This document shows positions 1,105-15,361 of a stretch of 45,001 nucleotides of DNA, in pieces. The notes beneath the pieces were generated by a model. That model was given only the letters and a program-made list of their open reading frames with translations, did no database searches and was not told where the DNA came from. This DNA comes from Bacilli bacterium (GTDB lineage: Bacteria; Bacillota; Bacilli; Paenibacillales; KCTC-25726), in contig DASVDB010000018.1 in assembly GCA_036381315.1 (NCBI GenBank), positions 1-45,001 on the forward strand, written 5' to 3'. Position 1 is the first letter of the stretch. Each line of letters opens with the position of its first letter. The translations under genes were made by a program, and so were the position numbers.

Positions 1105-2097
1105 TTATTCATGCGACTTTTTCCGGTTTAAATGAACGAACGTGATGGCCAACGCCATCAGAAGCACGCAGCCTTTTATAATATCAAAAGCGTAATAGGG
1201 TAAATTCAACATGGTTAAACCATTCAGCAAAATGCCGATCAGCATCGCCCCGAAAAATGTTCCGATCACGTTCGGCTTGCCCGCCCCCAAAACGGAGTAG
1301 CCGACAAATACGGCGGCGACGGACTCCATCAATAACGGCGAGCCCGCATCGATTTGTCCCGAACCAACGCGGGCGGCAAACAAAATTCCAGCGATTGCGG
1401 CAAAGACGCCCGACAAAACATAAGCGAACAAACGCACGCGATTGACCCGAATGCCCGACAGCCGCGCGGCTTCCCGATTCCCTCCGGTAATGTACATTTG
1501 CCTGCCCCATCTTGTATAATGCAAAAACAGATGCGCAACGAGCACCGCAATCAGCATCATAATAACCGGTACCGGCACGCCCAACAATTTGCCTTGTCCG
1601 ATCCAGAGAAACGATTGGGCAAATTCTCCGGGGGCCTTTGTTCCGTCCGTCATTTGCATATGATTGTATATGGAATAGCCGTGCGTGTAAGTTTTATGCA
1701 CGCCGCCGATGATGTACATCACTGTTAAAGTTGCGAGCAAATCGGGAATACGCACTTTAACGATCAGGAACGTGTTCAGCAAACCGATTGCCGCGCCGAT
1801 TAATATGGGCACCAAAATGACGATAATGAGCGGCTGCTGGAACCAGACCATCAAGGTTGCCGTTACAACGGTCGTCAGCGATACGATGGAGCCTACGGAC
1901 AAATCGAAGCCGTCGACAATGAGCGAAAACGTAACTCCGATCGCGATAAAAGTGACGATGGATATGGAGCGCAAAATATCGGACAAGTTGTCATACGTAA
2001 AAAAATACTGGTTCACAGCCGCAAAAAACAACAGGATGATAAAAATAACGACGATCGCGCCATATTTAAATGAAAGATCCAATAAGCGATTTTTCAT
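1105..2097 (-). CDS. Ribose-type sugar ABC transporter permease
   Basis: This 330-residue permease belongs to the RbsC/branched-chain (BPD_transp_2) family, with about 8-10 transmembrane helices. Visible family signatures are the DGFDLSVGSIVSLT segment near residue 65 and a GGNREAARLSGI cytoplasmic loop that contacts the ATPase. The start at 2097 overlaps the ATPase stop as ATGA and has GGAGG just upstream; longer open-frame starts run into the ATPase gene. It is the last gene of the microcompartment operon and forms the membrane pore of the importer whose other parts lie immediately upstream. The sugar is not readable from the sequence; the operon context suggests a 5-deoxy- or 5-methylthio-pentose. 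Confidence 0.9.
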   Translation of the reverse strand: MKNRLLDLSFKYGAIVVIFIILLFFAAVNQYFFTYDNLSDILRSISIVTFIAIGVTFSLIVDGFDLSVGSIVSLTTVVTATLMVWFQQPLIIVILVPILIGAAIGLLNTFLIVKVRIPDLLATLTVMYIIGGVHKTYTHGYSIYNHMQMTDGTKAPGEFAQSFLWIGQGKLLGVPVPVIMMLIAVLVAHLFLHYTRWGRQMYITGGNREAARLSGIRVNRVRLFAYVLSGVFAAIAGILFAARVGSGQIDAGSPLLMESVAAVFVGYSVLGAGKPNVIGTFFGAMLIGILLNGLTMLNLPYYAFDIIKGCVLLMALAITFVHLNRKKSHE

Positions 2098-3602
2098 TCC
2101 TCCGTTCTCCCTTCCCCGCAAGCGTACAAAAGCAGCAAATCGCTCGTCGCTTCTTCCCGGCTCAATTCCTTCACAATTTCCCCATTGCACATGACGAGGA
2201 TTCGATCGGCAATCCCCAAAATTTCCTCGAATTCGCTGGAAAAATAAATAATCCCTTTGCCTTTTTGCGCCAATTGGCCGATCAGGCGGAAAATATCGCT
2301 TTTCGCCCCGATATCCACCCCTTTGGTCGGCTCATCGAACAAATACACTTCCGCTTCTGTCGGAAGCCATTTGCCCACCGCCACTTTCTGCTGGTTGCCG
2401 CCGCTTAAAAAAGCAACCGTCTGGCGGACATGCGGAGTTTTAATACCCAGATCCCGCACAACCGCTTCGGCATGCGTCTCTTCCAACTTCCGCCGCACAA
2501 AACCAAATCGGCTTAGTCGGCGCAAAGTGAGCAAACTTAAATTTCGCGCGACCGATTCGGCAATCAGGATTCCCTGCTTGCGCCTTTCCTCGGGCACGAG
2601 TACGATTCCCGCCCGCACGGCTTGATCCGGATGCGCGAGCTTAAGCGGTTTGCCCTTCATGTAAATCGTGCCTTTTTCCAAGCGGTCGGCTCCGAACAAA
2701 AGCCGGGACAACTCCGTTTTCCCCGCGCCGACAAAGCCGGTCACGCCGACGATTTCCCCTTCGCGCACGCGGAGTCCGACGTGTTTCACCTTGTTTCCGC
2801 GCGTCAACCCTTCCGCTTCCAAAAGCAGTTTTCCCGGCGGCACGGTGATTTTCGGAAATTCTTCCTGCAACGGCTTGCCCAGCATCAATTCCACGATCTC
2901 GGGCACATTCGTCATGGCCGTTTGCTTGGTGGCGACCCGTTTGCCGTCGCGCATCACCGTGATGCGGTCGCTTATTTGAAATACTTCAGCCAGCCTGTGG
3001 GAAATGAAAATGCAGCCTACGCCGGCGTCTTTCAATTGCGCCATGACATTGAACAGGCGGTTCGTTTCTTCGACGCCAAGCGGCGCTGTCGGCTCGTCAA
3101 AAATGATAAATTTGGCTTTTTGCAAAAGTGCACGCGCGATGACAACCATTTGCTTCTCGGCCAACGACAGCCCGCGCACAGTGCGCGCAATATCGAGCGG
3201 AAATTCCAGCCGGGCAAGTACGGACTGCGCCTCGCGCTTCAATTTGCGCCAACGGAGCCACTGCCCTTTATGGGGATCGGCCATTTGATCCAACACGATA
3301 TTTTCGCCGACTGAAAGATCGGGCACCAGCACGGCGTCGACCTCTTGATAAACGCAATGAATCCCGTGCTTGATCGCGTCAGCCGGGTTTTGAATCTCCA
3401 AACGTTTTTGCGCGATTTCAATCGTTCCTTCGTCTGGCAAATAGGCGCCTGTCAGCACCTTCATAAGCGTACTTTTCCCGGCGCCGTTTGCGCCCAATAA
3501 CGCGTGGATTTCGCCGCCTAGGGCAGCGAAATCCACGCCATCCAACGCTTTGACGCCGGGAAAAGACAGGGAGACATGCCTCATATTGAGTTCGGTTGCC
3601 AT
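2094..3602 (-). CDS. Sugar ABC transporter ATPase (RbsA-type, two NBDs)
   Basis: This 502-residue protein has two fused nucleotide-binding domains, as in RbsA/MglA/XylG. The first NBD has Walker A GANGAGKST (about residues 36-44), a signature-like LSLAEKQ and Walker B FIIFDEPTAPLG. The second has the usual degenerate Walker A GFVGAGKTE, a canonical LSGGNQQKV signature and VYLFDEPTKGVD. Degeneracy of the second site is normal in this family. It energises uptake through the permease encoded next (4-bp overlap) with the lipoprotein encoded 31 nt upstream. It belongs to the microcompartment operon and probably supplies its sugar. Confidence 0.92.
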   Translation of the reverse strand: MATELNMRHVSLSFPGVKALDGVDFAALGGEIHALLGANGAGKSTLMKVLTGAYLPDEGTIEIAQKRLEIQNPADAIKHGIHCVYQEVDAVLVPDLSVGENIVLDQMADPHKGQWLRWRKLKREAQSVLARLEFPLDIARTVRGLSLAEKQMVVIARALLQKAKFIIFDEPTAPLGVEETNRLFNVMAQLKDAGVGCIFISHRLAEVFQISDRITVMRDGKRVATKQTAMTNVPEIVELMLGKPLQEEFPKITVPPGKLLLEAEGLTRGNKVKHVGLRVREGEIVGVTGFVGAGKTELSRLLFGADRLEKGTIYMKGKPLKLAHPDQAVRAGIVLVPEERRKQGILIAESVARNLSLLTLRRLSRFGFVRRKLEETHAEAVVRDLGIKTPHVRQTVAFLSGGNQQKVAVGKWLPTEAEVYLFDEPTKGVDIGAKSDIFRLIGQLAQKGKGIIYFSSEFEEILGIADRILVMCNGEIVKELSREEATSDLLLLYACGEGRTEE

Positions 3603-3633
3603 GTTTACAACCCCTTCCCGCCGCTTGCATTCC

Positions 3634-4719
3634 TTATTTCTTTAAATATTCGTCCATCCAATCCGCATATCCCTGGTTGCTGCTTCCCCAGCCTTTCACA
3701 TATTGGGCCAGTTCGGACGTATTGATTTGCTTGTCCGGCAAATCTTCCCGTTGCACAAATACAGGCTCAAGCACAATCGTGTCCGGCACTTGGTCGCCGT
3801 GGAATCGTTGATACAGGAAACGCACCTGAACGCGCCCGATGTCTTTCGGGTCTACGGCCGCGGAGGCAATCCACGGATTGGAATCATCCTGAATCATTTG
3901 CAGGTCTTCATCGCTCATGTCGATGCCGTACAGCTTGATTTCCGTTCTGCCGGCTTGCTGAATCGCTCTGGCCGCGCCTTTGGCAAACTCATCCCAAGCC
4001 GCCCAAACAGCGGAAATCTGGCCTTTCGGATATTGTTTCAAAATGGCTTCCATTTGCGCTTGCGTATCAAGCGCGGTATTGGCGGTCGCTGCGCCGAAAC
4101 TGGCGATTTCCTTGATGTCCGGGTATTTTTTCAAGAATGCTTCATACGCGATTTGCCGGCGTTCCATCGGGGCAAAACCCGCCACCCATATTTTCACGAT
4201 GTTTCCTTGGCCGTTGATATCTTTCGCCAATCGCTCAAGCGTCATTTCCGCCATCTTCTGGTCGGCTTGCTCCAACGTCGTAACCCCGGCCAATTGCAAA
4301 GTCGAATCGAAGGCAATAACCGGAATGCCTTTGTCAACCGCTTTTTGCGCGCCTGCCTGCAACGCTTCCGCGGTTCCATGGTCCAGCAGGATGCCGTCGA
4401 CATGCTGGTTCACCGCGGCATCGAGGTTCGACGCCATTTTGCCCAAATCGCCGTCCGAAGCCATGACGGTTACTTCTCCGCCGAAAGCTTCAACTTCCGA
4501 TCGCACACCATCTATGTATTGAGCTGAAAATGTTCCAAGATTTTGCTGCATGACAAGCGCAATTTTTTTACCGGCAAGCGGTAAACTGTTGCCCGCATCG
4601 TTGTCCTGGCCGTTTTGGCCGGTTGCGTCGTTGCCGCCGTTTGCGCCGCAGCCCGCAACGATTGCCAACACGAGCACAAGTGTCATGATTAAGCTGAACA
4701 TGCGTGATAATTTTTTCAT
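3634..4719 (-). CDS. Sugar-binding lipoprotein of the ABC transporter
   Basis: This 361-residue extracytoplasmic binding protein is of the RbsB-like periplasmic-binding type 4 fold. Residues 1-24 form a lipoprotein signal with lipobox IVAGC, placing Cys24 as the lipidated residue, followed by a Gly/Asn/Asp-rich linker. The mature part has the two-lobe pattern typical of sugar binders (start at KIALVMQQNLGTF, then GILLDHG, IPVIAFDS and LYGIDMSDED). The ATG at 4719 was chosen because AGGAGGG lies 8 nt ahead; the earlier in-frame ATG at 4746 lacks a site. It follows the CoA-transferase-like beta gene after 69 nt, the largest gap in the operon, and precedes the ATPase. The ligand is unknown; a 5-deoxypentose is inferred from context. 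Confidence 0.9.
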   Translation of the reverse strand: MKKLSRMFSLIMTLVLVLAIVAGCGANGGNDATGQNGQDNDAGNSLPLAGKKIALVMQQNLGTFSAQYIDGVRSEVEAFGGEVTVMASDGDLGKMASNLDAAVNQHVDGILLDHGTAEALQAGAQKAVDKGIPVIAFDSTLQLAGVTTLEQADQKMAEMTLERLAKDINGQGNIVKIWVAGFAPMERRQIAYEAFLKKYPDIKEIASFGAATANTALDTQAQMEAILKQYPKGQISAVWAAWDEFAKGAARAIQQAGRTEIKLYGIDMSDEDLQMIQDDSNPWIASAAVDPKDIGRVQVRFLYQRFHGDQVPDTIVLEPVFVQREDLPDKQINTSELAQYVKGWGSSNQGYADWMDEYLKK

Positions 4720-4788
4720 TTGTAAAACCCTCCTATGTAAATTCATTTACTTGGGTTAACGGTTAAAAAAATTTCGCCATTTAAGCCG

Positions 4789-5505
4789 TTAAAACTCTAT
4801 ATCGCGTACGCGTGCCGGGTCTACCTTCCCGAGAGCCAGCCATTCCGCATCGTCAGGCTCCGGCGTCATGCGAACTTCGTCGTATTCCAGGGCAAAACCG
4901 GTGTTTGCCTTAACTTCATCCAAAGAGGAATAGGGATGAATGCTATCGAGCACCAAGCGGCCTTGCGTTTTCTTGAATACCGCAAGCGGCGTTACAACAT
5001 AACGAACATTGCCGGTTGACGTGACAAAATCGCACTTTTCGACAAATGTGCGTCGATCATGTTTCGTCCGCCACAAAATGGAGCTTTTGGCGGTCGGAAT
5101 AATGACCGCGCTGCCGGCGCCTCCGGGCAGCCTTACTTTCGGCCGGTTATATGGGCCGATGACGCTGTTGTTGACTTGTCCAAACCGGTCGATTTGCGCG
5201 CCGCTCAAAAAAGCGACGTCCAGTTTTCCACGGGCGCACAAATCAAATATGTCCGTCAAAGGAAAATGGGACCGCGTTCCTTTCAGCAGTTCATGTCCGA
5301 CCGTCGACTTTGGCAGCTTGGCCGGGCGCGGATTCACGCTCCCGGAAATATTCAAATACACGAGATTTGGCGCATGGAGCTCCTTGGCGAGCAAAATGGC
5401 GACCATCGGCAGCGGCGACGATAATCCGTGAAACACGGTTTGCTTATCCTGCAGCAATCTCGCCAAACAAACCGCCATCATATCGGCTGGCGTCAATTTA
5501 GCCAA
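4789..5505 (-). CDS. CoA-transferase family I beta-like subunit lacking the catalytic Glu
   Basis: This 238-residue protein resembles the beta subunit of glutaconate CoA-transferase (GctB) along its length: a HAPNLVYL strand, GGAQID-type motif (here SGAQIDRFGQVN), and a late NTGFAL segment. In GctB the active-site glutamate (Glu54) sits in VESG; here the aligned position is Ile53 in NISG, so the thioester-forming residue appears to be missing. IpdB of the steroid-ring-opening IpdAB enzyme is a known relative without this Glu, so a hydrolase/lyase-type or other CoA-thioester role is possible. The start is TTG at 5505, nine bases after a clear AGGAGG that overlaps the alpha-subunit stop. It is paired with the alpha subunit (2-nt gap) and lies inside the microcompartment operon. 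Confidence 0.85.
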   Translation of the reverse strand: MAKLTPADMMAVCLARLLQDKQTVFHGLSSPLPMVAILLAKELHAPNLVYLNISGSVNPRPAKLPKSTVGHELLKGTRSHFPLTDIFDLCARGKLDVAFLSGAQIDRFGQVNNSVIGPYNRPKVRLPGGAGSAVIIPTAKSSILWRTKHDRRTFVEKCDFVTSTGNVRYVVTPLAVFKKTQGRLVLDSIHPYSSLDEVKANTGFALEYDEVRMTPEPDDAEWLALGKVDPARVRDIEF

Positions 5506-5507
5506 GC

Positions 5508-6365
5508 CTACCACCTCCTTTCGCCGAAGGCGGTTTTCAAGCCCCGGTCTTTTTTGGCGCTTGCGGCGACGTATTCGGCAATTTCCCGCGGCTCGCGGCA
5601 TTGCAAAAAGCGGGCGATTTCGTTTTTGTCATACGGGTATAAGCCAGGGCAACTGGCCGGCAACGCCCCCTTCGGGCTGTGGACGACGGCATGCACCAAA
5701 AACCCGGGGATGTCCGTCCGCTCCGGCTGCTGCTCGAATGAATGCGAGCCGATGATTTTTTCCGCCGTTATGATGACTCGTTTCGCCGCTTTCGCCATCA
5801 GCACATCTTCAAATTTTTGCCCATAAATCCGGGAATTGCCCCATTTATCCGCCTCATGCACATGAATGACCGCCCAATCCGGTTCGATTTTGGGGATCGC
5901 CACGTATGTTTCGCCGGTATACGGATCGGCGACCTGACGAAATCCCCGCTGCGCGGGCAGATCGCTTCCCTGCAAGCCGTTCACCGGCAAAAATGATACG
6001 CCGTAACTGGCCGCGCGCAGCGAAGTAATCACCGTGTAGCAGGCGTGCTCTTTCGCCTCGACCAAACCTTGTTCAACCCGTTTGCGGTAATGCGGGCACA
6101 GGCCGAATTCATTTTCATAGCCGACAAATCCCGCGGAAACCGCGCGCAGGCATCCCGCCGCCGCCAACAGGTCGATATCGTAAGCGCCGGCCGTTTTGAC
6201 GACTTCCAGCTTTTTTTTCCCTTGTCTGGCCAGTTCGCGCACAAATGCGGATGGGCTGCGGTGCAGCACGTTGCCCCCCAATGCGAGAATATCGCCGTCT
6301 TGCACGAGCGCAGCCGCTTCTTCCAATGAAATCAATTTGTTGTTCTGCCCAGATTCCTTAAGCAT
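5508..6365 (-). CDS. CoA-transferase family I alpha-like subunit
   Basis: This 285-residue protein is related to GctA/IpdA. It has the N-terminal VQDGDILALGG nucleotide/CoA-fold motif, the GYENEFG and RVEQG segments, and a LQGSDL motif at mid-length, all typical of the alpha subunit. With the next gene it should form an alpha/beta heteromer acting on an acyl-CoA. Because the partner lacks the usual catalytic Glu, ordinary CoA transfer cannot be assumed. The ATG at 6365 has GAGGTG 8 nt upstream and follows the flavoprotein stop by 10 nt. In the operon it could process the acyl-CoA leaving the microcompartment, or a side product; the substrate is not readable from sequence. Confidence 0.85.
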   Translation of the reverse strand: MLKESGQNNKLISLEEAAALVQDGDILALGGNVLHRSPSAFVRELARQGKKKLEVVKTAGAYDIDLLAAAGCLRAVSAGFVGYENEFGLCPHYRKRVEQGLVEAKEHACYTVITSLRAASYGVSFLPVNGLQGSDLPAQRGFRQVADPYTGETYVAIPKIEPDWAVIHVHEADKWGNSRIYGQKFEDVLMAKAAKRVIITAEKIIGSHSFEQQPERTDIPGFLVHAVVHSPKGALPASCPGLYPYDKNEIARFLQCREPREIAEYVAASAKKDRGLKTAFGERRW

Positions 6366-6375
6366 TCATGTCACC

Positions 6376-7713
6376 TCATTTTGCGGCGTTGGCCGCTACC
6401 GATACGGCGTCCCACACGGTCGCGTACGGCGGAGCGTAAGCAAGATCAAGCAATCCGATATCGTCAGTGCTCATGCGGTTCGTGATCGCCGCGGCAAACA
6501 CATCGATCCGCTTGTCCACGCCGCCTGTGCCGACCATTTGCGCGCCCAGCAAAATTCGCGAGGCGGGTTGGTAGACGAGTTTGATGAAAATGGGCCTGGG
6601 GTCGGGATAATATCCGGCATGGCTGGCAGTGTTCACGGTTACCGTCTTATACGCCAAACCGTACTTGATTGCTTCCCGCTCGGAAATTCCGGTTTTCGCC
6701 ACCGTCCATTGCAAAATTTTCGCCACGCTCGTGCCAAGCACTCCCGGAAACGCTCGCCTGACGCCCGCCATATTTTCGCCCGCCAAACGGCCTTGTTTGT
6801 TGGCGATTGTCCCCAGCGCGATATGGACGGGACGATGCAGCACCAAATGATGGCTGGTCGCGCAATCGCCGGCGCCGTATATATCCGGTATGTTCGTCTC
6901 CATGTATTCGTTTGTCAGCACCGCGCCGTTCTCCCACAAGCGGATGCCGCTGTTTTTCAGGAAATCCGTATTCGGCTTTACTCCGATATTGGCAATAACC
7001 GCATCGGTCGCGTAAGTGGCTTTGTCGGTAACAACATGGGTTACGGCGGAGTTCTTCTCGATCAATTCCACTACTTTTTCGTTTGTTTGGATCGCGATTC
7101 CGCGTTCGCGCAACGATTGTGCGACGATCTCCGCCATTTCCGCGTCGAGCGGGGGCAAAATTTGCGGCTGCAATTCGATCACGCGAATATTTTTGCCCAG
7201 TTCCGCCATGGCCTCGACCAATTCCATCCCGATGTACCCGGCGCCGATGATCGTCACGTCGCGAATGGACGGGTTTTGGAAAAAGGTCTTCATCGCAATT
7301 CCGTCGGGAATCGTTTTGAGTGTAAATACGTTGGCCAGATGCTCTTTTACAAACGGCGGCTTGATCGGTGAAGCGCCCGTTGCGATCAGGAGCTTGTCGT
7401 AATGGACGATCTTCGTGCGGCCGTGCTCAAGATCCCGGACGAACACATTCCGGTCTTGCGGAAAAACGCGCAACACCTCATGCCGCAAGCAAACATCAAT
7501 GCGTTGCTTTTTGAAGTCGGCAACGCTGCGCATAAGCATCGCTTCGTAAGATTTCGTAATATCCGCGATGAAATACGGCAACCCGCACGCCCCGTAGGAA
7601 ATGAAATCGCCTTTTTCGAAAACGGTAATGTTCGCGCTTTGATCGATTCTGCGCAGCTTTGCCGCCGCGCTCATGCCTGCGGCGACGCCGCCGATAATGA
7701 CGATATCCCCCAT
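6376..7713 (-). CDS. FAD/NAD(P)H disulfide reductase, CoA-disulfide reductase type
   Basis: This 445-residue flavoprotein belongs to the CoA-disulfide reductase / NADH oxidase branch of the pyridine nucleotide-disulfide reductases. It has an FAD Rossmann motif IIGGVAAGMSAA at the N-terminus, a single redox Cys43 in SYGACGLPY (the position used by CoA-disulfide reductase), a second dinucleotide motif GAGYIGMELVEAM near residue 150, and the YGAGDCA FAD motif near residue 280. The length is that of the family without a rhodanese extension. Such enzymes reduce CoA disulfide or oxidise NAD(P)H with O2. Within this operon it could keep the CoA pool reduced or regenerate NAD+ in place of the missing alcohol dehydrogenase; this is inference. 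Confidence 0.88.
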   Translation of the reverse strand: MGDIVIIGGVAAGMSAAAKLRRIDQSANITVFEKGDFISYGACGLPYFIADITKSYEAMLMRSVADFKKQRIDVCLRHEVLRVFPQDRNVFVRDLEHGRTKIVHYDKLLIATGASPIKPPFVKEHLANVFTLKTIPDGIAMKTFFQNPSIRDVTIIGAGYIGMELVEAMAELGKNIRVIELQPQILPPLDAEMAEIVAQSLRERGIAIQTNEKVVELIEKNSAVTHVVTDKATYATDAVIANIGVKPNTDFLKNSGIRLWENGAVLTNEYMETNIPDIYGAGDCATSHHLVLHRPVHIALGTIANKQGRLAGENMAGVRRAFPGVLGTSVAKILQWTVAKTGISEREAIKYGLAYKTVTVNTASHAGYYPDPRPIFIKLVYQPASRILLGAQMVGTGGVDKRIDVFAAAITNRMSTDDIGLLDLAYAPPYATVWDAVSVAANAAK

Positions 7714-7737: not shown

Positions 7738-8346
7738 TTACAGGATGTCCGTTCGCAAATGCGCGATCACTTCGGCGGTCGGATGAGCAAGGCACAATTG
7801 CCTGATCAGCGTGCCGTTATTCGCCAAATACGCTACTCCGGCGTCCAAACCTGCCTGTACGGCAGCCGTCTCGCCCTGGAAAAAGACCACCCCTTTGCCG
7901 CCAAAACGCTCGGAAAAGCGAATGTCCAGCTTGTCAACAAAGACCGTTTTGGCGACAATATCCGCCGCGGCAATCGCCGCTACCACCGTCTCCGTCTCCA
8001 GCAAACCGACCGCCCCCGCCGCAACCATGTCGACTGTATCCGGGCCGCCCGCGGAAGACGGCGCGCGCAGCGCGGCGATGACTTGCCCGCTGGGATTGCC
8101 GAGCATATACACGTCCAAAACGGAATATCCATTCGCGGAAATATGCTCGATTGCCGCCTGCACGGCGCCAAAACTGCCGGCAATCAAGAGCAAATATTTG
8201 CCGGGATTCACAACCTGTCCTCGGCGCGGTTCAACCCGGACTGTTTTCATGATCGCGTCAAGCGCCGCGATTCCTTCCACGACGCTGCCGAATTCCAACA
8301 AGCCAAGCGCCGTTTGCCGCTGTTCATGATCTGTCATTCGCTTCAT
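7738..8346 (-). CDS. BMC-T tandem-domain shell protein (PduT-like)
   Basis: This 202-residue protein consists of two consecutive BMC domains: ALGLLEFGSVVEGIAALDA from residue 13 and AVGLLETETVVAAIAAADI from about residue 110. It should form a pseudohexameric trimer in the shell. In PduT a 4Fe-4S cluster is held by Cys in CPGK; here the motif is NPGK (Asn47), so the cluster is not expected and the pore may serve metabolites. The ATG at 8346 overlaps the vertex-protein gene by 23 nt and has AAGG five to eight bases upstream; a second ATG three codons later is possible. It is the last shell gene, 24 nt ahead of the flavoprotein gene. Confidence 0.9.
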   Translation of the reverse strand: MKRMTDHEQRQTALGLLEFGSVVEGIAALDAIMKTVRVEPRRGQVVNPGKYLLLIAGSFGAVQAAIEHISANGYSVLDVYMLGNPSGQVIAALRAPSSAGGPDTVDMVAAGAVGLLETETVVAAIAAADIVAKTVFVDKLDIRFSERFGGKGVVFFQGETAAVQAGLDAGVAYLANNGTLIRQLCLAHPTAEVIAHLRTDIL

Positions 8347-8599
8347 CCAGCCTTATTTGATCAACGATTCCAACGATGATGGCATCCGCAACGGATTCGG
8401 GATTGCCCGCGGCAATGCGCGCCGAGCTTCCGGTCGAGATGATGACTTTGTCCCCGATTCCCGCCCCGATCGCGTCAACGGCCACAACAACGCCGTCCTC
8501 ATCCGTGTATAACGGCCTAACAATTAAAAACTTCGCACCTACCAATTTATCATGCTTGCGCGTGCTCACCAGGGAGCCGACAACTTTTCCCAAAATCAT
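8324..8599 (-). CDS. BMC vertex protein, EutN/CcmL family
   Basis: This 91-residue protein is of the EutN/PduN/CcmL family, whose pentamers cap the vertices of microcompartment shells. The start MILGKVVGSLVSTRKHD is the family hallmark, followed by LVGAKFLIVRPL and the VAVDAIGAGIGDKVIISTGSSAR core; length is typical. The ATG at 8599 follows AAAGGA by nine bases. It lies 35 nt after pduL and its end overlaps the BMC-T start, indicating tight co-translation. Only one vertex gene is present in the window; some shells encode three. Confidence 0.93.
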   Translation of the reverse strand: MILGKVVGSLVSTRKHDKLVGAKFLIVRPLYTDEDGVVVAVDAIGAGIGDKVIISTGSSARIAAGNPESVADAIIVGIVDQIRLDEANDRS

Positions 8600-8634: not shown

Positions 8635-9306
8635 TTACTTCCGCAGCAGTTTGACGATATCGCCGGTTTTCAGTCCCAACGCGTTGGCGTCATCGGTGTC
8701 AAGATGCATCTCGACCGTATAGGTGTCTTTCACCCGCACCTGCACGTCCAGGAGAATCGCGGGCTTGGCGGAATGCTCGACCAAAACGTCCACCTTTTGA
8801 TTATGCGCAACCTGATAGCGTTTCGCTTCCGCGGGGCTAAAATGGATATGGCGATTCGCGATGATGCATCCTTCCGAAAGCCGCAATGTTCCTTTGGGGC
8901 CGACCAACGTAATCGGCGCCGATCCGGCCACATTGCCCGACTCGCGTACAGGAGGCGCAAGTCCCAAATAGCGGGCGTCGGTCGCGGACAATTCAATCTG
9001 GCAAACGGAGCGCAGCGGGCCCAAAATTCTGACCCGTTCAAGTTTCCTCCCGTTGGCTCCGACAAGCGTAACGGTTTCGTTCGCCGCAAACTCTTTGCGC
9101 ATCGACAGATCGTTGCGCTTGGTCAGTTGGTAGCCCGCGCCAAACAGCGCTTCCAACGCGTCTTTTGTCACGTGCAGATGCCTTGCCGAAACGCCGACGC
9201 GAATCTGATCGGGAATTTCCGCGCCGATATTCCCGCTTTCGGACAGCTTCAGGATTTCTTTCACGACTTCGCGCGTGATTAATTGGATCAATTCATCATC
9301 TTGCAA
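8635..9306 (-). CDS. pduL: PduL-type phosphotransacylase
   Basis: This 223-residue phosphate acyltransferase interconverts acyl-CoA and acyl phosphate inside the microcompartment, recycling CoA for the aldehyde dehydrogenase. Two PduL signature motifs holding the metal-binding histidines are visible: SARHLHV near residue 43 and ANRHIHFSPAEA near residue 150. Residues 3-20 (DDELIQLITREVVKEILK) form an amphipathic helix typical of an encapsulation peptide. The start is TTG at 9306 with GGTGAT upstream; no ATG fits the N-terminal helix. It follows the last BMC-H gene by 21 nt. The product should be acetyl phosphate if the aldehyde is acetaldehyde. Confidence 0.93.
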   Translation of the reverse strand: MQDDELIQLITREVVKEILKLSESGNIGAEIPDQIRVGVSARHLHVTKDALEALFGAGYQLTKRNDLSMRKEFAANETVTLVGANGRKLERVRILGPLRSVCQIELSATDARYLGLAPPVRESGNVAGSAPITLVGPKGTLRLSEGCIIANRHIHFSPAEAKRYQVAHNQKVDVLVEHSAKPAILLDVQVRVKDTYTVEMHLDTDDANALGLKTGDIVKLLRK

Positions 9307-9327: not shown

Positions 9328-9606
9328 TTATTTGGCGGACGGCAAAATTTTCTCCAGATCGGCATGCGGACGCGGAATCACATGGGCGGCGATCAGTTCG
9401 CCCAACCGTTGCGCCGCTTCCGCGCCGACTTCGGTAGCCGCTTTCACGGCGCCGACATCGCCGCGGATAAAGACGCTGATCAATCCGGAGCCGATTTGCT
9501 CCTTGCCCACAACCGTAACGTTGGCTGCCTTTACCATCGCGTCGGCGGCTTCGATTGCCGCCGTCAAACCCCGCACTTCAACCATTCCCAAGCATTCCTG
9601 GCTCAT
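9328..9606 (-). CDS. BMC-H shell protein (copy 1)
   Basis: This 92-residue single-domain shell protein starts [13 protein letters not shown] and contains the canonical [19 protein letters not shown] core and the HVIPRPH motif near the C-terminus. Hexamers of such proteins tile the facets. The ATG at 9606 follows GGAGGG by seven bases and lies within the 3' end of the preceding shell gene (29-nt overlap in a different frame); the longer open frame upstream is antisense-like spill-over into that gene. It is closely similar to the shell protein at 9961-10236 and both are probably the main facet components. Confidence 0.93.
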
Positions 9607-9952
9607 CTTTTTTCCCTCCGGTTTTTTTGGCTTTGCTTTTGGATTTGCGTTTTGCTTGCTCCGATTTCGGTTTATAAATAAATTTGGCAATTTCCGGATG
9701 CGGCTTGACAATCACTTCCGCGGCGACCACTTTGCCGATTTGGCCCGCCGCGGCAATTCCCGCCGCGAGCGCCGCCTGAACGCTGCTTGCGTCTCCGTCG
9801 ACAATGACCGTCACCAGCCTGCTCCCCAGTTTTTTCTCGCAGTGCACCACATGCACCTGCGCCGCTTTCAGCATTTGATCCAACGCGTGAATCGCCGCCG
9901 CAAAGCTTTTGACTTCCAGGATAGCGATGGATTTCCCTTGCAATAAAGCCAC
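9578..9952 (-). CDS. BMC-H shell protein with Lys-rich C-terminal tail
   Basis: This 124-residue protein has a BMC domain at residues 7-90 ([19 protein letters not shown], then [14 protein letters not shown] and IVKPHPEI) and a tail of about 30 residues very rich in Lys and Ser. The tail departs from ordinary facet proteins and could bind cargo, nucleic acid or polyphosphate, or connect compartments to each other; this is inference. The start is uncertain: GTG at 9952 begins the frame, but a TTG at 9943 sits better behind GAGGTGG. The pore-region sequence differs from the other three shell paralogues, suggesting a specialised role. It is 8 nt after the preceding shell gene and overlaps the next. 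Confidence 0.88.
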
Positions 9953-9960
9953 CTCGCCTC

Positions 9961-10236
9961 TTATTTTGCCTGCGGGAGAATCGCTTCCGTTTCCTCATGC
10001 GGGCGCGGAATGACATGCACCGCAATCAATTCGCCCAATTTTTGCGCCGCTTCCGCTCCGGCTTCCGTTGCCGATTTCACGGCGCCCACGTCGCCGCGCA
10101 CCAGTATCGTCACCAATCCGGAGCCGATTTTTTCCATTCCCACCAACTCGACGTTGGCCGCTTTCAGCATCGTGTCGGCGCCTTCGATCGCCGCCACCAG
10201 GCCTTTTGTTTCGATGATTCCCAGTGCTTCTTTCAT
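9961..10236 (-). CDS. BMC-H shell protein (copy 3)
   Basis: This 91-residue facet protein of the canonical PduA/PduJ/EutM type starts with [19 protein letters not shown] and has [19 protein letters not shown] in the pore region and HVIPRPHEE near the end. It is nearly the same as the copy at 9328-9606 over the whole domain. The ATG at 10236 follows AAGGAGG by 11 bases. A 62-nt gap separates it from the upstream shell gene, the largest gap within the shell cluster. Confidence 0.94.
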
Positions 10237-10298: not shown

Positions 10299-10613
10299 TT
10301 ATTGCGGCCCGACCGTAGTTCTTTTGACGATTTCATCCAACTGGCCGCTTGGACGCGGAATCACATGCGCGAGAATGCCGTCGCCGCAAATTTTTCGCGC
10401 GGCTTTCTTCCCTGCCGCCACCGCTTCCATCACGGCGGAAACTTCACCGCGCAGCTTGACCACGACCGTCACCGGAATGGCGCCGCTCTCTCCAAGCGGG
10501 CGCGTATCCTCCATGGAGAAGATTTCCACCGGGGCAACTTTGGCCGCGGCATCGGCAGCGACAAGAGCCGCCGTAAAACCGCGCACTTCAATCAAACCGA
10601 TTGCTTTGTCCAA
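10299..10613 (-). CDS. BMC-H shell protein (longer variant)
   Basis: This 104-residue single BMC-domain protein starts with MDKAIGLIEVRGFTAALVAAD. Between strands it carries a longer, acidic insertion (MEDTRPLGESGAIPV, about residues 34-48) absent from the other paralogues, and it keeps HVIPRP near the end. The insertion lies close to where the pore loop should be, so its hexamer may have a different channel. The start is TTG at 10613, five bases after GGAGGGG. It is the first shell gene, 13 nt after the aldehyde dehydrogenase gene. Confidence 0.9.
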   Translation of the reverse strand: MDKAIGLIEVRGFTAALVAADAAAKVAPVEIFSMEDTRPLGESGAIPVTVVVKLRGEVSAVMEAVAAGKKAARKICGDGILAHVIPRPSGQLDEIVKRTTVGPQ

Positions 10614-10626
10614 GTTGTCCCCTCCG

Positions 10627-12261
10627 TTACTTCACATTCAGCCCGCCGCCGCTCAGCACAAACCGGCGCTTGCGGGCAAACGATCGCGCCGAGGTTAGCC
10701 CTTCGCCCGTCGGACCGGCAATCGTATACGTGCAAAATCCTTCGCCTTCGATGCCGATCGAAGCGAACGACGGGCCGTTGGCGACAAACACGGTTGTCTG
10801 GATGCGCCGCGCAAATTCCGTGATCCGTCCGATATGGTTGGAATGAATGTGCGCCGAATGCCGGTTGCCTTTTTCCACCTTGACCGCGGCTTCCACCGCG
10901 TCGGTGAAGCTGTTCACGCGAACGACCGGCAAAATCGGCATCATCAATTCTTCCATGACGAACGGATGGTCCAGATCGGTTTCGCACAAAATGCAGCGAA
11001 TGCCGCCGTCATCTTGTACGCCGAGCGCGTTTAAAAATTTCGCGACATCCTTGCCGACCCACTCTTTCTTGATCCCGACTTCCCTTGGGTGAAGCGGAAG
11101 GACGCAGCCCGGCGCCTGCTGTTCTTTTTGCGCCGTCAGCACAAGCTCGGCAAGCTTGCGGATCTCCTCTTTCGCGGCGATATATCCGCCGTTTTTGGAA
11201 AAGTGATACAGTAGGTCATCGGCAACGTCTTGAACGACGATTACCGCTTTTTCCGAAATGCAGGGCAAATTGTTGTCGAGCGTAGCCCCTGCCAAAATAT
11301 CGCGCGCGGCTTTTTCCAAATTGGCCGTCTCGTCCACAATGACGGGCGGATTGCCGGCTCCTGCGCAAATGGTCTTTTTGCCGGATTTCAGCATCGCTTG
11401 CATCAAATTCGGCCCGCCGGTGCCGACCAGCAATTTCACCTGCGGATGGTCAAACAGCTGTTGCGATGTTGCCAGCGTCGGCTGGGCGACGGTGACCGCA
11501 ATGTTGGCGGGACCGCCGGCGCTTACGACAGCTTCGTTGATTTTGCGCACGGCGTGTTGCGATGTGCGGTTTGCGCCGGGATGCGGGTTGAAGACGACGA
11601 CATTGCCCGCCGCCAGCATGCCGATCGTGTTGCACAGAATCGTTTCGCTCGGGTTGGTCGACGGGGTAATCGCCCCGATCACGCCGTACGGCGAATATTC
11701 GATCAGCGTCACGCCAGCGTCTCCCGCAAACGTTTCCGTGGCCAAATCCGCTGTGCCCGGCGTAAGATCGGCGACGACCAAATGCTTTGTGACCTTGTCC
11801 GGAAAATTGCCCATGCCTGTTTCTTCCACGCCCATTTTGGCGAAAACTTCCGCTTCCTTACGTATCATCTCCTTGATGGCCAGGATGTACATTTCGCGTT
11901 CTTTTATCGTCCGTTTGGATAGCTCGCCGTAAGCGATCTGCGCCGCCCGGATCGCTTCTTCCATCGTGGCGAAAATTCCCGGGCCCGCATCAGGGGCGGA
12001 CGGCATGTCCCTATTTGCCTTCACGATGCCGGGCAGCGGGCCGGCCGCAGGCTTTGCGGCAGGAGCGGCGGATTGCCGAACGGCGTTTGCCGTCATGCTT
12101 TCCGCGAACGATTTCACCACTCCCGGCAGATTGTTGAATGAGGATGCGGGTTTTGGCGCCGCCGGCTCTTTTTCGGCCGGTTCGGGCTGCTCATTCAAGC
12201 TCTCCTGGATGTTCAACATCACCTTTTCGATAATCTGCTGAATTTGCGATTCACTGACCAA
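10627..12261 (-). CDS. CoA-acylating aldehyde dehydrogenase (PduP/EutE family)
   Basis: This 544-residue enzyme oxidises an aldehyde to acyl-CoA with NAD+ and CoA. Residues 1-22 form an amphipathic helix (SESQIQQIIEKVMLNIQESL) like known encapsulation peptides, followed by a Pro/Ala/Glu-rich linker of about 70 residues and then the aldehyde dehydrogenase domain from about residue 95. The catalytic cysteine is Cys334 in DNNLPCISEK; EEAIRAAQIAY and AGAGNPPVIVD are family motifs. It is about 80 residues longer than typical PduP/EutE because of the linker, which also holds two short similar segments (LPGVVK and LPGIVK). The start is TTG at 12261 with GGAG upstream. In the proposed pathway it converts acetaldehyde from the aldolase to acetyl-CoA. 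Confidence 0.94.
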   Translation of the reverse strand: MVSESQIQQIIEKVMLNIQESLNEQPEPAEKEPAAPKPASSFNNLPGVVKSFAESMTANAVRQSAAPAAKPAAGPLPGIVKANRDMPSAPDAGPGIFATMEEAIRAAQIAYGELSKRTIKEREMYILAIKEMIRKEAEVFAKMGVEETGMGNFPDKVTKHLVVADLTPGTADLATETFAGDAGVTLIEYSPYGVIGAITPSTNPSETILCNTIGMLAAGNVVVFNPHPGANRTSQHAVRKINEAVVSAGGPANIAVTVAQPTLATSQQLFDHPQVKLLVGTGGPNLMQAMLKSGKKTICAGAGNPPVIVDETANLEKAARDILAGATLDNNLPCISEKAVIVVQDVADDLLYHFSKNGGYIAAKEEIRKLAELVLTAQKEQQAPGCVLPLHPREVGIKKEWVGKDVAKFLNALGVQDDGGIRCILCETDLDHPFVMEELMMPILPVVRVNSFTDAVEAAVKVEKGNRHSAHIHSNHIGRITEFARRIQTTVFVANGPSFASIGIEGEGFCTYTIAGPTGEGLTSARSFARKRRFVLSGGGLNVK

Positions 12262-12267
12262 AACCGT

Positions 12268-13089
12268 TCACTCCTTCTTGCCCGACTTAAGCTGTTTCAG
12301 TACAGCAGCCGTTACTCTGGCGACAATTTGCTCCAGTTGTTCATTGCTGAGATGATCGGACTTGTCGGCATGTTGCGGCGGTCGGGGGAGACACGCGGAC
12401 AACTCGTCCCGGCAAGGCACCCCGGAAGGCGTTGCGCCGGGTATGCCCATCTTCTTTTTCAAATCGACCAATTGCGCAACCCGCTCCGTCGACAACTCCC
12501 GGTTGCCGCCCATTTGCCGCGCTATCCAGTTGATTTTCGCGTAAAATTCCAACGATTCCATCAAATTCGCGGCGACGGTCAAATTTTTGCCCCAAGTGAG
12601 CGCGCCGTGGTTTTCCAACAACACTCCCTGATGATTGCCGACATATTTGGCCACGGATCGGGAAAGCTCTTCCGTCGAGGGGGTGCCGTATTCCGCTACG
12701 GGAATCGTGCCCAACAGCACGATGGACTCCGGCATCAACGCCTGATCAAGCGGAATTCCGGCGACGGCGAAAGCGGTGGCGAACGGCGGATGCGCATGCA
12801 CAACGGCGCGTATTTCCGGATTTTCCCGATAAACGCCCAAATGCATCTTGATCTCGGAAGTCGGCTTTAGTCTGCCGGACAACACGTCGCCATTGCCGTT
12901 CACTTTGATCAGCATGTCGGGCTTCAACAAATTTTTGCTTACGCCGGTCGGCGTGACCCAATATTGATCGGGGCCGACTTTGACCGAAATATTTCCGTCA
13001 TTTGCCGTGACCAGGCCTTTTTCGTATATCGTTTTGCCCACCGTGCAAATATCCTGTTTGATTTTGAATTCCGACAGTTCTGGCTGCAA
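12268..13089 (-). CDS. Class II aldolase with C-terminal encapsulation-like helix
   Basis: This 273-residue protein is of the FucA/AraD class II aldolase family. Motifs: NDGN at 30-33, the catalytic acid in TSEIKMH (Glu79), metal ligands His98 and His100 in VVHAHPPF, and His161 in ENHGALTWG. The aldolase core ends near residue 218; a linker with Pro and Ser follows, then a strongly amphipathic helix at about 248-270 (SNEQLEQIVARVTAAVLKQL) resembling encapsulation peptides. TTG at 13089 is chosen because GGAGGTG lies 8 nt upstream and overlaps the mtnA stop. Following kinase and isomerase genes, the expected reaction is cleavage of 5-deoxyribulose-1-phosphate (or the methylthio analogue) to DHAP and an aldehyde. 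A fuculose- or rhamnulose-phosphate aldolase would share the fold. Confidence 0.92.
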   Translation of the reverse strand: MQPELSEFKIKQDICTVGKTIYEKGLVTANDGNISVKVGPDQYWVTPTGVSKNLLKPDMLIKVNGNGDVLSGRLKPTSEIKMHLGVYRENPEIRAVVHAHPPFATAFAVAGIPLDQALMPESIVLLGTIPVAEYGTPSTEELSRSVAKYVGNHQGVLLENHGALTWGKNLTVAANLMESLEFYAKINWIARQMGGNRELSTERVAQLVDLKKKMGIPGATPSGVPCRDELSACLPRPPQHADKSDHLSNEQLEQIVARVTAAVLKQLKSGKKE

Positions 13090-13096
13090 TTGCGGA

Positions 13097-14152
13097 TCAC
13101 CTCCCCCCGCTTTTGGCTGCCGCCAGCGCACCCATGTATGGCGGCCTGATGACGCCTTTTTCCGTGATGATGGCGGTAATCAGCTCGTGGGGCGTAACAT
13201 CGAACGCCGGATTGAACACTTTCGTGCCGACTGGCGCCGTCTGTTTGCCGAAGCCTTGCGTAATTTCTTCCGCCTTGCGTTCCTCAATCGGAATTTCCGC
13301 TCCCGACGCGATGGACATATCAACGGTGGACAACGGCGCGGCGACATAAAACGGGATGCGGTGCGCCTTGGCCAACAGCGCGAGCCCGTATGTGCCGATC
13401 TTGTTGGCCGTGTCGCCGTTTGCCGCAACGCGGTCGCAACCGACGATCACCGCCTGCACCCAGCCTTTTTGCATCACATAAGCCGCCATATTGTCCGCAA
13501 TCAGCGTTACGTCGATTCCGGCCCGCTGCAGCTCCCACGTCGTAAGTCTGGCGCCTTGCAAAAGCGGGCGCGTCTCGTCGGCGAACACCCGCACGGACCG
13601 CCCTTGCTCATGCGCCAAAAAAAGCGGAGCGAGCGCCGTGCCGTATTTCGCCGTGGCGATGCCGCCGGCGTTGCAGTGCGTCAGCACGTGCACTTCCTGC
13701 GGAAACAGCGTAAGCGCATGTTCGCCGATAGCGCGGCAGACCGCTTCGTCTTCATCGCGAATCGCATGCGCTTCTTTCTGCAAAATCGCCTTGATCCGGG
13801 GCACAGGCAAATCCTTGGCGTTTTTCGCGCAGTCTTTCATGCGGTTCAACGCCCAAAAAAGGTTGACCGCCGTCGGCCGCGAGGTCGCCAAATAATCGGC
13901 ATGCTCCTCCAACGCCCGATAAAATTCGGCAAAGCCGGTTTCCGGCGCATCCTTGATGCCAAGCAGCAAACCGTAAGCTGCCGCGATGCCGATGGCGGGA
14001 GCGCCTCTTACTTTAAGCTCTTTAATCGCCTCCCAAACGCCCTTGACCGTCGTGATCTCGATATATGTTTCGGCCAAGGGCAGTTGCGTCTGGTCCAATA
14101 TTATCAATTTTTGCCCGTCAAAACGGACGGATTGAACGGCATCATTCGGCAT
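13097..14152 (-). CDS. mtnA: MtnA-family aldose-1-phosphate isomerase
   Basis: This 351-residue protein belongs to the methylthioribose-1-phosphate isomerase family. It keeps RGAPAIG (residues 49-55), the catalytic Cys160 in LTHCNAGGIAT, the DETRPLLQGARLT segment, and catalytic Asp240 in GCDRVAANGD, matching the positions in Bacillus MtnA. It should isomerise a 5-substituted ribose-1-phosphate to the ribulose-1-phosphate. Family members are known to act on 5-methylthioribose-1-P and 5-deoxyribose-1-P. Here it sits between kinase (6-nt gap) and aldolase, with no other methionine salvage genes (mtnB, mtnW, mtnX, mtnD) in the window, favouring the aldolase-type disposal route. The ATG at 14152 follows AAAGGAG. 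Confidence 0.93.
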   Translation of the reverse strand: MPNDAVQSVRFDGQKLIILDQTQLPLAETYIEITTVKGVWEAIKELKVRGAPAIGIAAAYGLLLGIKDAPETGFAEFYRALEEHADYLATSRPTAVNLFWALNRMKDCAKNAKDLPVPRIKAILQKEAHAIRDEDEAVCRAIGEHALTLFPQEVHVLTHCNAGGIATAKYGTALAPLFLAHEQGRSVRVFADETRPLLQGARLTTWELQRAGIDVTLIADNMAAYVMQKGWVQAVIVGCDRVAANGDTANKIGTYGLALLAKAHRIPFYVAAPLSTVDMSIASGAEIPIEERKAEEITQGFGKQTAPVGTKVFNPAFDVTPHELITAIITEKGVIRPPYMGALAAAKSGGR

Positions 14153-14158
14153 GAATGC

Positions 14159-15361
14159 TCAAACTCCTTTGATCATCTCGGTCAGCATTTCGACATTCGC
14201 GATTTTTTCCCGCTTCATGATCAGCAATTGCCCGATTTTGAGCGCCAATCGTTGCGCGCTTGCGCGTTTTGCCGCATCCGGAATTTGATCGATATCCGCC
14301 ACATGCGCCAAACCGTGGATACGGCGAATCATTTTGCATCCGGCAAAACCTACGGTTTCGGCAAATACATACGACAGATAGATGTCCTGGAACCCGGGGC
14401 GGGAGAATATGTAGTCCTTGCACTCCGACAGCATCAGCCTACGGAACTTCGCATCAAATTTAAGCCAGATATCCGCGATCATGGAAAGCAGGCGTTCCCT
14501 TACTTCCCGCAGCTCCTGCGCATGATCCGCCCATCCTTCCTGCGCGCAATAATTCAGCAACAAATTGGCCAACACCGCGCCGATATCAAATCCCATCGGC
14601 CCGTAATAGGCAAACTCAGGATCGATAACTTTCAGCGCGTCTTCCTTGATGAAAATGCTGCCCGTATGCAAATCTCCGTGCAAGAGCGCATCCGCCCTCG
14701 TCATGAAGTGGTATTTCAGTTTGGCCACTTCCAGTTTTAACGGCTCATTGTCCCAGAGCGCGGCGACATCGGCGGCGATCTCCTCCGGGATATTGTTTTC
14801 CGGCGCGTCGTAATACGGTTGGGTAAAAATCAAGTCCTCGGAAATTTTGCACAACTCGGGATTGATGAACTTGCCCACATTTTCCTTTTTGGCAAACGGA
14901 GGCAAATACAAATCCGACGTGTAAAAGAGCGTTTTGGCCAAAAATTCGCTGATTTGTTCGGCAAAATGCGGATACGCGTTTTTTTCGATCAATCCTTTGC
15001 GCATAATCTTGTAATCCGACAAATCTTCCATTACAAACAAACTCATGCCGTGATCAACATGAAAAATCCGCGGAGTATATTCCGGGCAAAGCTTCGCCTG
15101 AACTTGCAGCGCTTCCGATTCGATGCGCGAACGGTCGACGGTAAGCGGCATCGATTCGCCGACGACGCGGGCGTAAGGCAGCGCCTGTTTGAGTACGACG
15201 CTTTTTCCCGTAACATCGTCTTTGATGATAAAAACAAGATTCAAGTTGCCGTCGCCGACTTCCTTGGCCGAGAGTTTCGCGCCTTGCGCAAACAATCCCG
15301 GAATTTGCCGCACATATTCAACCACTGACGGCACCGTCAATGTCCGATAATTTTCCGCCAT
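14159..15361 (-). CDS. mtnK: Methylthioribose-kinase-family sugar kinase
   Basis: This 400-residue kinase has the protein-kinase-like fold of MtnK. The catalytic loop HGDLHTGSIF places Asp230 as base, and DPEFAYYGPMGFDIG (Asp247, Glu249) binds the metal; KQALPY near residue 58 holds the ATP lysine. Length equals Bacillus MtnK (about 397). It should phosphorylate the anomeric oxygen of methylthioribose or 5-deoxyribose. It is the first gene of the microcompartment operon, with AAGGAGG eight bases before the ATG and a good sigma-A promoter upstream. No SAM riboswitch fits in the short leader, unlike the methionine-salvage mtnKA operon of Bacillus subtilis, so regulation and probably the role differ. 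Confidence 0.92.
   Translation of the reverse strand: MAENYRTLTVPSVVEYVRQIPGLFAQGAKLSAKEVGDGNLNLVFIIKDDVTGKSVVLKQALPYARVVGESMPLTVDRSRIESEALQVQAKLCPEYTPRIFHVDHGMSLFVMEDLSDYKIMRKGLIEKNAYPHFAEQISEFLAKTLFYTSDLYLPPFAKKENVGKFINPELCKISEDLIFTQPYYDAPENNIPEEIAADVAALWDNEPLKLEVAKLKYHFMTRADALLHGDLHTGSIFIKEDALKVIDPEFAYYGPMGFDIGAVLANLLLNYCAQEGWADHAQELREVRERLLSMIADIWLKFDAKFRRLMLSECKDYIFSRPGFQDIYLSYVFAETVGFAGCKMIRRIHGLAHVADIDQIPDAAKRASAQRLALKIGQLLIMKREKIANVEMLTEMIKGV

Follow-up and report, generated by a model that had tools for sequence, protein, structure and literature searches.

A class II aldolase with a predicted C-terminal encapsulation peptide in a putative DHAP-shunt metabolosome of Bacilli

Described systems and the locus under study

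A class II aldolase with a C-terminal encapsulation peptide has been reported before, namely the pfam00596 aldolase of the ACI type of bacterial microcompartment (BMC; Sutter et al. 2021, PMC8217296). The aldolase described here shares with ACI the enzyme family, the protein end bearing the tail and the proposed role of the latter; however, ACI is found in Acidobacteria only, with its aldehyde dehydrogenase (AldDH) on a satellite locus, a hydroxyacid dehydrogenase and a substrate that is not known, whereas in the window (the whole 45,001-nucleotide stretch of a Bacilli bacterium that was analysed) MtnK, MtnA, AldDH and PduL are encoded in one operon of a member of the Bacillota.

The second system to be considered is the DHAP shunt (DrdK-DrdI-DrdA or MtnK-MtnA-Ald2), known in a cytosolic form: MtnK/DrdK phosphorylates 5-deoxyribose or 5-methylthioribose, MtnA/DrdI isomerises, and cleavage by DrdA/Ald2 yields DHAP plus acetaldehyde or methylthioacetaldehyde (PMC6079011, PMC10986504). 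The trio of kinase, isomerase and class II aldolase, which in the shunt is sometimes accompanied by sugar transporters, recurs in the window locus, and the products would be the same; yet the shunt enzymes are described as soluble, tail-less relatives of the aldolase stop at the core, and no link to microcompartments was found in the DHAP-shunt papers searched.

Two further likenesses concern the fate of the aldehyde. In SPU microcompartments (PMC8217296) an aldolase frees acetaldehyde and a triose phosphate and AldDH takes the aldehyde, but the enzymes are a class I DeoC and RpiB working on 2-deoxyribose-5-P; neither belongs to the window locus, there being no DeoC-type pfam01791 aldolase and no RpiB (pfam02502) among the ORFs of the operon. 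In the PVM and GRM5 types (fucose/rhamnose; PMC3557285, PMC6325248) a class II aldolase feeds an encapsulated AldDH/PduL core, but lactaldehyde is made from L-fuculose-P or L-rhamnulose-P, and GRM5 needs a glycyl radical diol dehydratase; no ORF of the window operon has the size or family of that enzyme or its activase. Among the papers searched, the only one joining microcompartments with thioribose, MtnK, the DHAP shunt or deoxypentose is a study of Acetobacterium woodii, where mtnK neighbouring BMC genes was called unrelated to BMC function (PMC7593272). An unnamed entry in the supplementary tables of the BMC catalogue (MIC, MUF or PVM-like) may already hold the present locus.

Here, I propose that the aldolase tail is a C-terminal encapsulation peptide, by which the enzyme enters the microcompartment whose shell genes share its operon, and that this compartment is a DHAP-shunt metabolosome; from homology, motif and gene content I give this reading a probability of about 0.82. 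What looks new is the building of the MtnK-MtnA-aldolase shunt, that is 5-deoxyribose/5-methylthioribose salvage, into a microcompartment. The proposal assigns a site to the release of the reactive aldehyde in the shunt and suggests a reason for the shell, which would keep acetaldehyde or methylthioacetaldehyde, arising from the salvage of radical-SAM and polyamine by-products, off the cytosol. If true, metabolosomes reach beyond dietary and cell-wall substrates, to the salvage of toxic by-products of the cell itself (or of its dead neighbours).

The window operon and the aldolase tail

The operon lies on the minus strand. The aldolase gene (12268-13089, minus strand; 273 aa) starts with a TTG at 13089, preceded by a good Shine-Dalgarno sequence (AGGTGA), and ends at 12268. 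Its DrdA/FucA-like core (residues 1-216; 12442..13089, minus strand) contains the Pfam Aldolase_II domain at residues 12-187 (E 1e-51), and by Foldseek its AlphaFold2 model resembles L-fuculose-1-P aldolase (4c24) and the 5-deoxyribulose-1-phosphate aldolase DrdA of B. thuringiensis (6btg, 6btd); the overlap covers about 210 residues and leaves the tail outside the common fold. H98, H100 and H161 are invariant and E79 is nearly so; by homology to FucA these are the predicted metal-binding Glu and three His. The class II fold and the clustering with MtnK and MtnA (window 13097-15361) are those of a DHAP-shunt aldolase (DrdA/Ald2, EC 4.1.2.62). Two other class II aldolase-family genes occur in the same genome, both on other contigs.

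On one side of the aldolase lie MtnK (14159..15361, minus strand; TIGR01767, 535 bits) and the 5-methylthioribose/5-deoxyribose-1-P isomerase MtnA (13097..14152, minus strand; TIGR00512, 464 bits). On the other side, always on the minus strand, the CoA-acylating AldDH (10627..12261; NF011927, 618 bits), with its N-terminal encapsulation-peptide helix MVSESQIQQIIEKVMLNIQESL at 12202-12258, is followed by four BMC-H shell proteins (PF00936) at 10299..10613, 9961..10236 (PduA-like, 105 bits), 9578..9952 and 9328..9606 (PduA-like, 98 bits; its start was picked by alignment, the ORF extending upstream to 9711). The third of these has a Lys-rich C-terminal extension of 25-30 residues. Then come the phosphotransacylase PduL (8635..9306; PF06130), with an N-terminal encapsulation-peptide helix at 9244-9303, the pentamer protein BMC-P (8324..8599; PF03319, E 6e-27) and a BMC-T protein with two PF00936 domains in tandem (7738..8346). 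All six shell domains detected in the genome sit in this locus. A flavoprotein resembling CoA-disulfide reductase/NADH oxidase (6376..7713; NF007123 above cut-off) and a two-subunit CoA-transferase (4789..6365; PF01144 twice), together at 4789-7713, are conserved at the end of the BMC operon, also in relatives, and both are untagged; a CUT2-type sugar ABC importer of permease, ATPase and binding protein (1105..4746; RbsA/AraG-like ATPase and RbsB-like binding-protein models) lies downstream in the window. Since none of the operon genes was recognised as an alcohol dehydrogenase and the flavoprotein and CoA-transferase are untagged, cofactor recycling may differ from that of classical metabolosomes. 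No acireductone dioxygenase scored above cut-off in the genome, hence MtnK and MtnA are unlikely to serve classical methionine salvage.

The preliminary description had put the aldolase at about 55 residues more than the usual core, with a Pro/Ser-rich linker and a tail helix at about 248-270, and closer analysis bears this out. Relatives from the same order that have no shell genes and no tail stop at ..RSFYGM, i.e. at residue 216 of the window aldolase, which extends 57 residues further. The linker (residues 217-248; 12346..12441, minus strand) counts 6 Pro and 4 Ser among its 32 residues and is modelled with low confidence (pLDDT 60-66, and below 50 at residues 239-242), and among 31 tail-bearing sequences it is poorly conserved, with a mean column entropy of 2.65 bits vs 1.11 for the core. 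The helix that AlphaFold2 predicts after it, NEQLEQIVARVTAAVLKQLKS (residues 249-269; 12283..12345, minus strand), has block-mean pLDDT values of 92-94.

The helix had also been credited with the hydrophobic spacing of BMC cargo peptides. Its helical moment is 0.43, as against 0.22+-0.11 for shuffles (p 0.036), and similar to those of the N-termini of AldDH (0.41) and PduL (0.45) from the same operon; as sole evidence for a tag, the moment was dropped, the p value being only about 0.03. The moment alone being weak evidence, a 16-column motif was therefore built, for which aldehyde-dehydrogenase N-termini of related shell loci were the sole training set, and applied to other termini. The aldolase tail matches it with z 4.2 (p 0.00065 vs 20,000 shuffles). 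When both ends of ten operon proteins were scored, only the N-terminus of AldDH (itself part of the training set), the N-terminus of PduL (p 0.009) and the C-terminus of the aldolase (p 0.001 in this comparison) stood out; the termini of MtnK, MtnA, the CoA-disulfide reductase, both CoA-transferase subunits, BMC-P and BMC-T did not score beyond chance. In the 31 tail-bearing sequences I255, V256, V259, T260, V263, L264 and L267 are conserved, lie on one helix face with i, i+3/4 spacing and have variable neighbours; Thr260 is invariant. Motif score and one-sided conservation, rather than the moment, are the stronger evidence for a tag, and with them the claimed spacing is upheld. The consensus IVAxVTxxVLxxL at a C-terminus could serve as a sequence marker predicting compartmentalised class II aldolases. 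What is expected of an encapsulation peptide was found here, namely a terminal amphipathic helix (usually of 15-20 residues), a flexible and variable linker, a motif common to other cargo tags and an association with shells (see below); the prediction that the tail is one is well supported.

Tail and shell genes across genomes

A scan of 84,980 species genomes returned 80 loci, each of which was annotated with a BMC profile and with the window proteins. Wherever the retrieved stretch contains shell genes, the related aldolase has the tail (61 of 61, in 60 different genomes). Eight tail-bearing genes lack shell genes in the retrieved stretch; on checking whole genomes, shell proteins were found elsewhere in seven and none in the eighth (G124, locus L045). 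A ninth such case, G048 (locus L032), has no shell protein in its whole genome either. The six tail-less genes from the scan are all in genomes without any shell protein, and of 17 genomes of the same order with tail-less aldolases 12 have no shell proteins and 5 do. By genome, the tail thus occurs with shell proteins in 67 and without them in 2, while tail-less aldolases occur with shell proteins in 5 and without them in 18; the Fisher p of about 1e-12 overstates the evidence, because the rows are related and were collected by similarity to tail-bearing queries. Not included in these counts are the tail-bearing genes L051, L064, L077, L085, L097 and L106, all six of them on short contigs, and L057, apparently tail-less in a shell-bearing genome, whose gene runs off the contig end.

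On a tree built from the aldolase core alone, with the tail columns excluded, the tail-less and shell-free members (L062/L098, L117, L119, L069, L083) are scattered among tail-bearing ones, which is the pattern expected from repeated loss together with the shell. The tree calls for 8 tail changes, 3 of them forced by well-supported branches, many branches being weakly supported; apparently, the tail was lost several separate times along with the shell. A peculiarity confined to a single clade was rejected as an explanation of the tail, as tail-less members recur within tail-bearing groups, in shell-free genomes.

The locus itself is found in at least seven further species, and the tail, whose absence from such loci would have spoken against targeting, is present in every homologue found with the same locus. 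The order importer, mtnK, mtnA, aldolase, AldDH, BMC genes, pduL, BMC-P, CoA-disulfide reductase and CoA-transferase A/B is kept in Paenibacillus albiflavus (L065), P. dendritiformis (L072), Clostridium bovifaecis (L073), Bacillus sp. P14.5 (L108) and Salipaludibacillus daqingensis (L112), and is partial or rearranged in P. profundus (L067, at a contig end), a Clostridia MAG (L111) and an Erysipelothrix MAG (L061, where MtnK/MtnA were not found). In the loci of Paenibacillus, Bacillus, Salipaludibacillus and C. bovifaecis the same three importer genes stand ahead of mtnK, and a DeoR-family regulator adjoins the operon in the three relatives checked.

Shell loci that lack MtnK/MtnA but encode an aldolase with this tail occur in many gut Clostridia. 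The one that was inspected (L091:9130-13460) encodes an RpiB-like isomerase and the aldolase, then AldDH and a zinc alcohol dehydrogenase, and is possibly of the PVM-like type; MtnK/MtnA were not found there, and the idea of an MtnK/MtnA pathway common to all tail-bearing Clostridia loci is unsupported.

Proposed pathway and alternative readings

From the computed tail, helix, motif, conservation and shell link, I infer the lumenal location of the aldolase, its substrate and the passage of sugar phosphate and DHAP through the shell, along the following route. The importer would take up a 5-deoxypentose, which cytosolic MtnK and MtnA would convert into 5-deoxyribulose-1-P (or 5-methylthioribulose-1-P). 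The sugar phosphate would pass through the shell into the lumen, where the tagged aldolase would cleave it into DHAP and acetaldehyde (or methylthioacetaldehyde); tagged AldDH and PduL would then carry the aldehyde on to acyl-CoA and acyl-phosphate, while DHAP would exit the shell. With the cleavage enzyme as the only one of the three shunt enzymes in the lumen, the aldehyde would appear beside tagged AldDH and PduL.

The suggestion of the preliminary description that aldehyde is generated inside the shell is thus supported by homology, motif and gene-content tests, whereas its corollary, a physical link of the MtnK and MtnA steps to the compartment, did not stand: neither protein has an encapsulation-peptide-like terminus, nor a long extension past its family model. 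Given that they carry no tag, the simplest layout is that both are cytosolic and that sugar phosphate is fed through the shell; the lumen would probably host only aldol cleavage, AldDH and PduL. Such a layout would divide the pathway clearly by function, with the tagged trio in the shell, whereas the kinase, the isomerase and the CoA-transferase would stay outside it.

The proposed binding site of encapsulation peptides is the groove between shell hexamers, and the A63R change in PduA blocks peptide binding (PMC11157265). Against the targeting reading count the residues at the groove position, the two shell-free genomes with a tailed aldolase, the five shell-bearing ones with a tail-less aldolase and the helical moment, which alone reaches only p 0.036. 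As for the groove, the residue aligned with PduA position 63 is Glu in 2 of the 4 window BMC-H proteins and Lys in a third; groove details may therefore differ.

The same two shell-free genomes lend some weight to the view that the helix binds other tagged enzymes, condensing the aldolase with AldDH and PduL into a core that would recruit a shell only secondarily or not at all; moreover, the encapsulation peptides of PduP and PduD bind one another in trimeric bundles and drive the formation of condensates (PMC12339742). Nonetheless, tail and shell genes are strongly associated and the tail is repeatedly missing in genomes that have no shell, which implies that its use is tied to shells, and condensation would operate inside the same organelle, so that it hardly competes with the preferred reading; as a separate explanation I consider it unlikely. 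About as improbable is that the locus is a fucose/rhamnose compartment (PVM or GRM5) in which the tail would still be an encapsulation peptide and MtnK/MtnA incidental neighbours. PVM, GRM5, PVM-like and MIC types do use class II aldolases (PMC4207490, PMC8217296, PMC8156839) and the aldolase core is close to L-fuculose-1-P aldolase, but MtnK and MtnA adjoin the aldolase, an arrangement repeated with the importer in unrelated genomes, and neither a glycyl radical enzyme nor a fucose/rhamnose gene was seen in the window operon. Less likely still is the reading that makes the tail an oligomerisation or active-site element of the aldolase, unrelated to targeting. In E. coli FucA, the active site does include portions of the C-terminus; here, however, the tail sits past the catalytic fold, separated from it by a variable linker, and is missing from close relatives, and its motif is that of the N-termini of AldDH, a protein of a different fold.

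The odds seem even that the locus represents a distinct microcompartment class for 5-deoxysugar by-products of SAM chemistry, with a portable tagged aldolase that may also dock in trans into the EUT or SPU shells of Brevibacillus, Neobacillus and Paenibacillus faecalis. Among the species with a tailed aldolase encoded away from shell genes, two shell loci of the ethanolamine (EutB) type are present in Brevibacillus laterosporus and one in P. faecalis, which also has a glycyl-radical locus, whereas Neobacillus vireti and N. novalis each have an SPU locus that includes DeoC, RpiB and triosephosphate isomerase. Acetaldehyde, which cleavage of 5-deoxyribulose-1-P should yield, is handled by EUT and SPU compartments alike, which makes recruitment in trans plausible; the distribution of these genes suggests it. 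In G048, in whose complete genome no shell protein was found, the tail may either be a remnant or have a function that needs no shell. The gene stands there in a phosphorylase-type DHAP-shunt operon (L032:9370-14264) composed of nucleoside phosphorylase, GntR regulator, MtnA, transporter and tailed aldolase. In the Neobacillus SPU loci (L126:8112-13218 and L131:6175-11281), triosephosphate isomerase is encoded among the BMC-P genes, and the same genomes encode the tailed DHAP-shunt aldolase separately.
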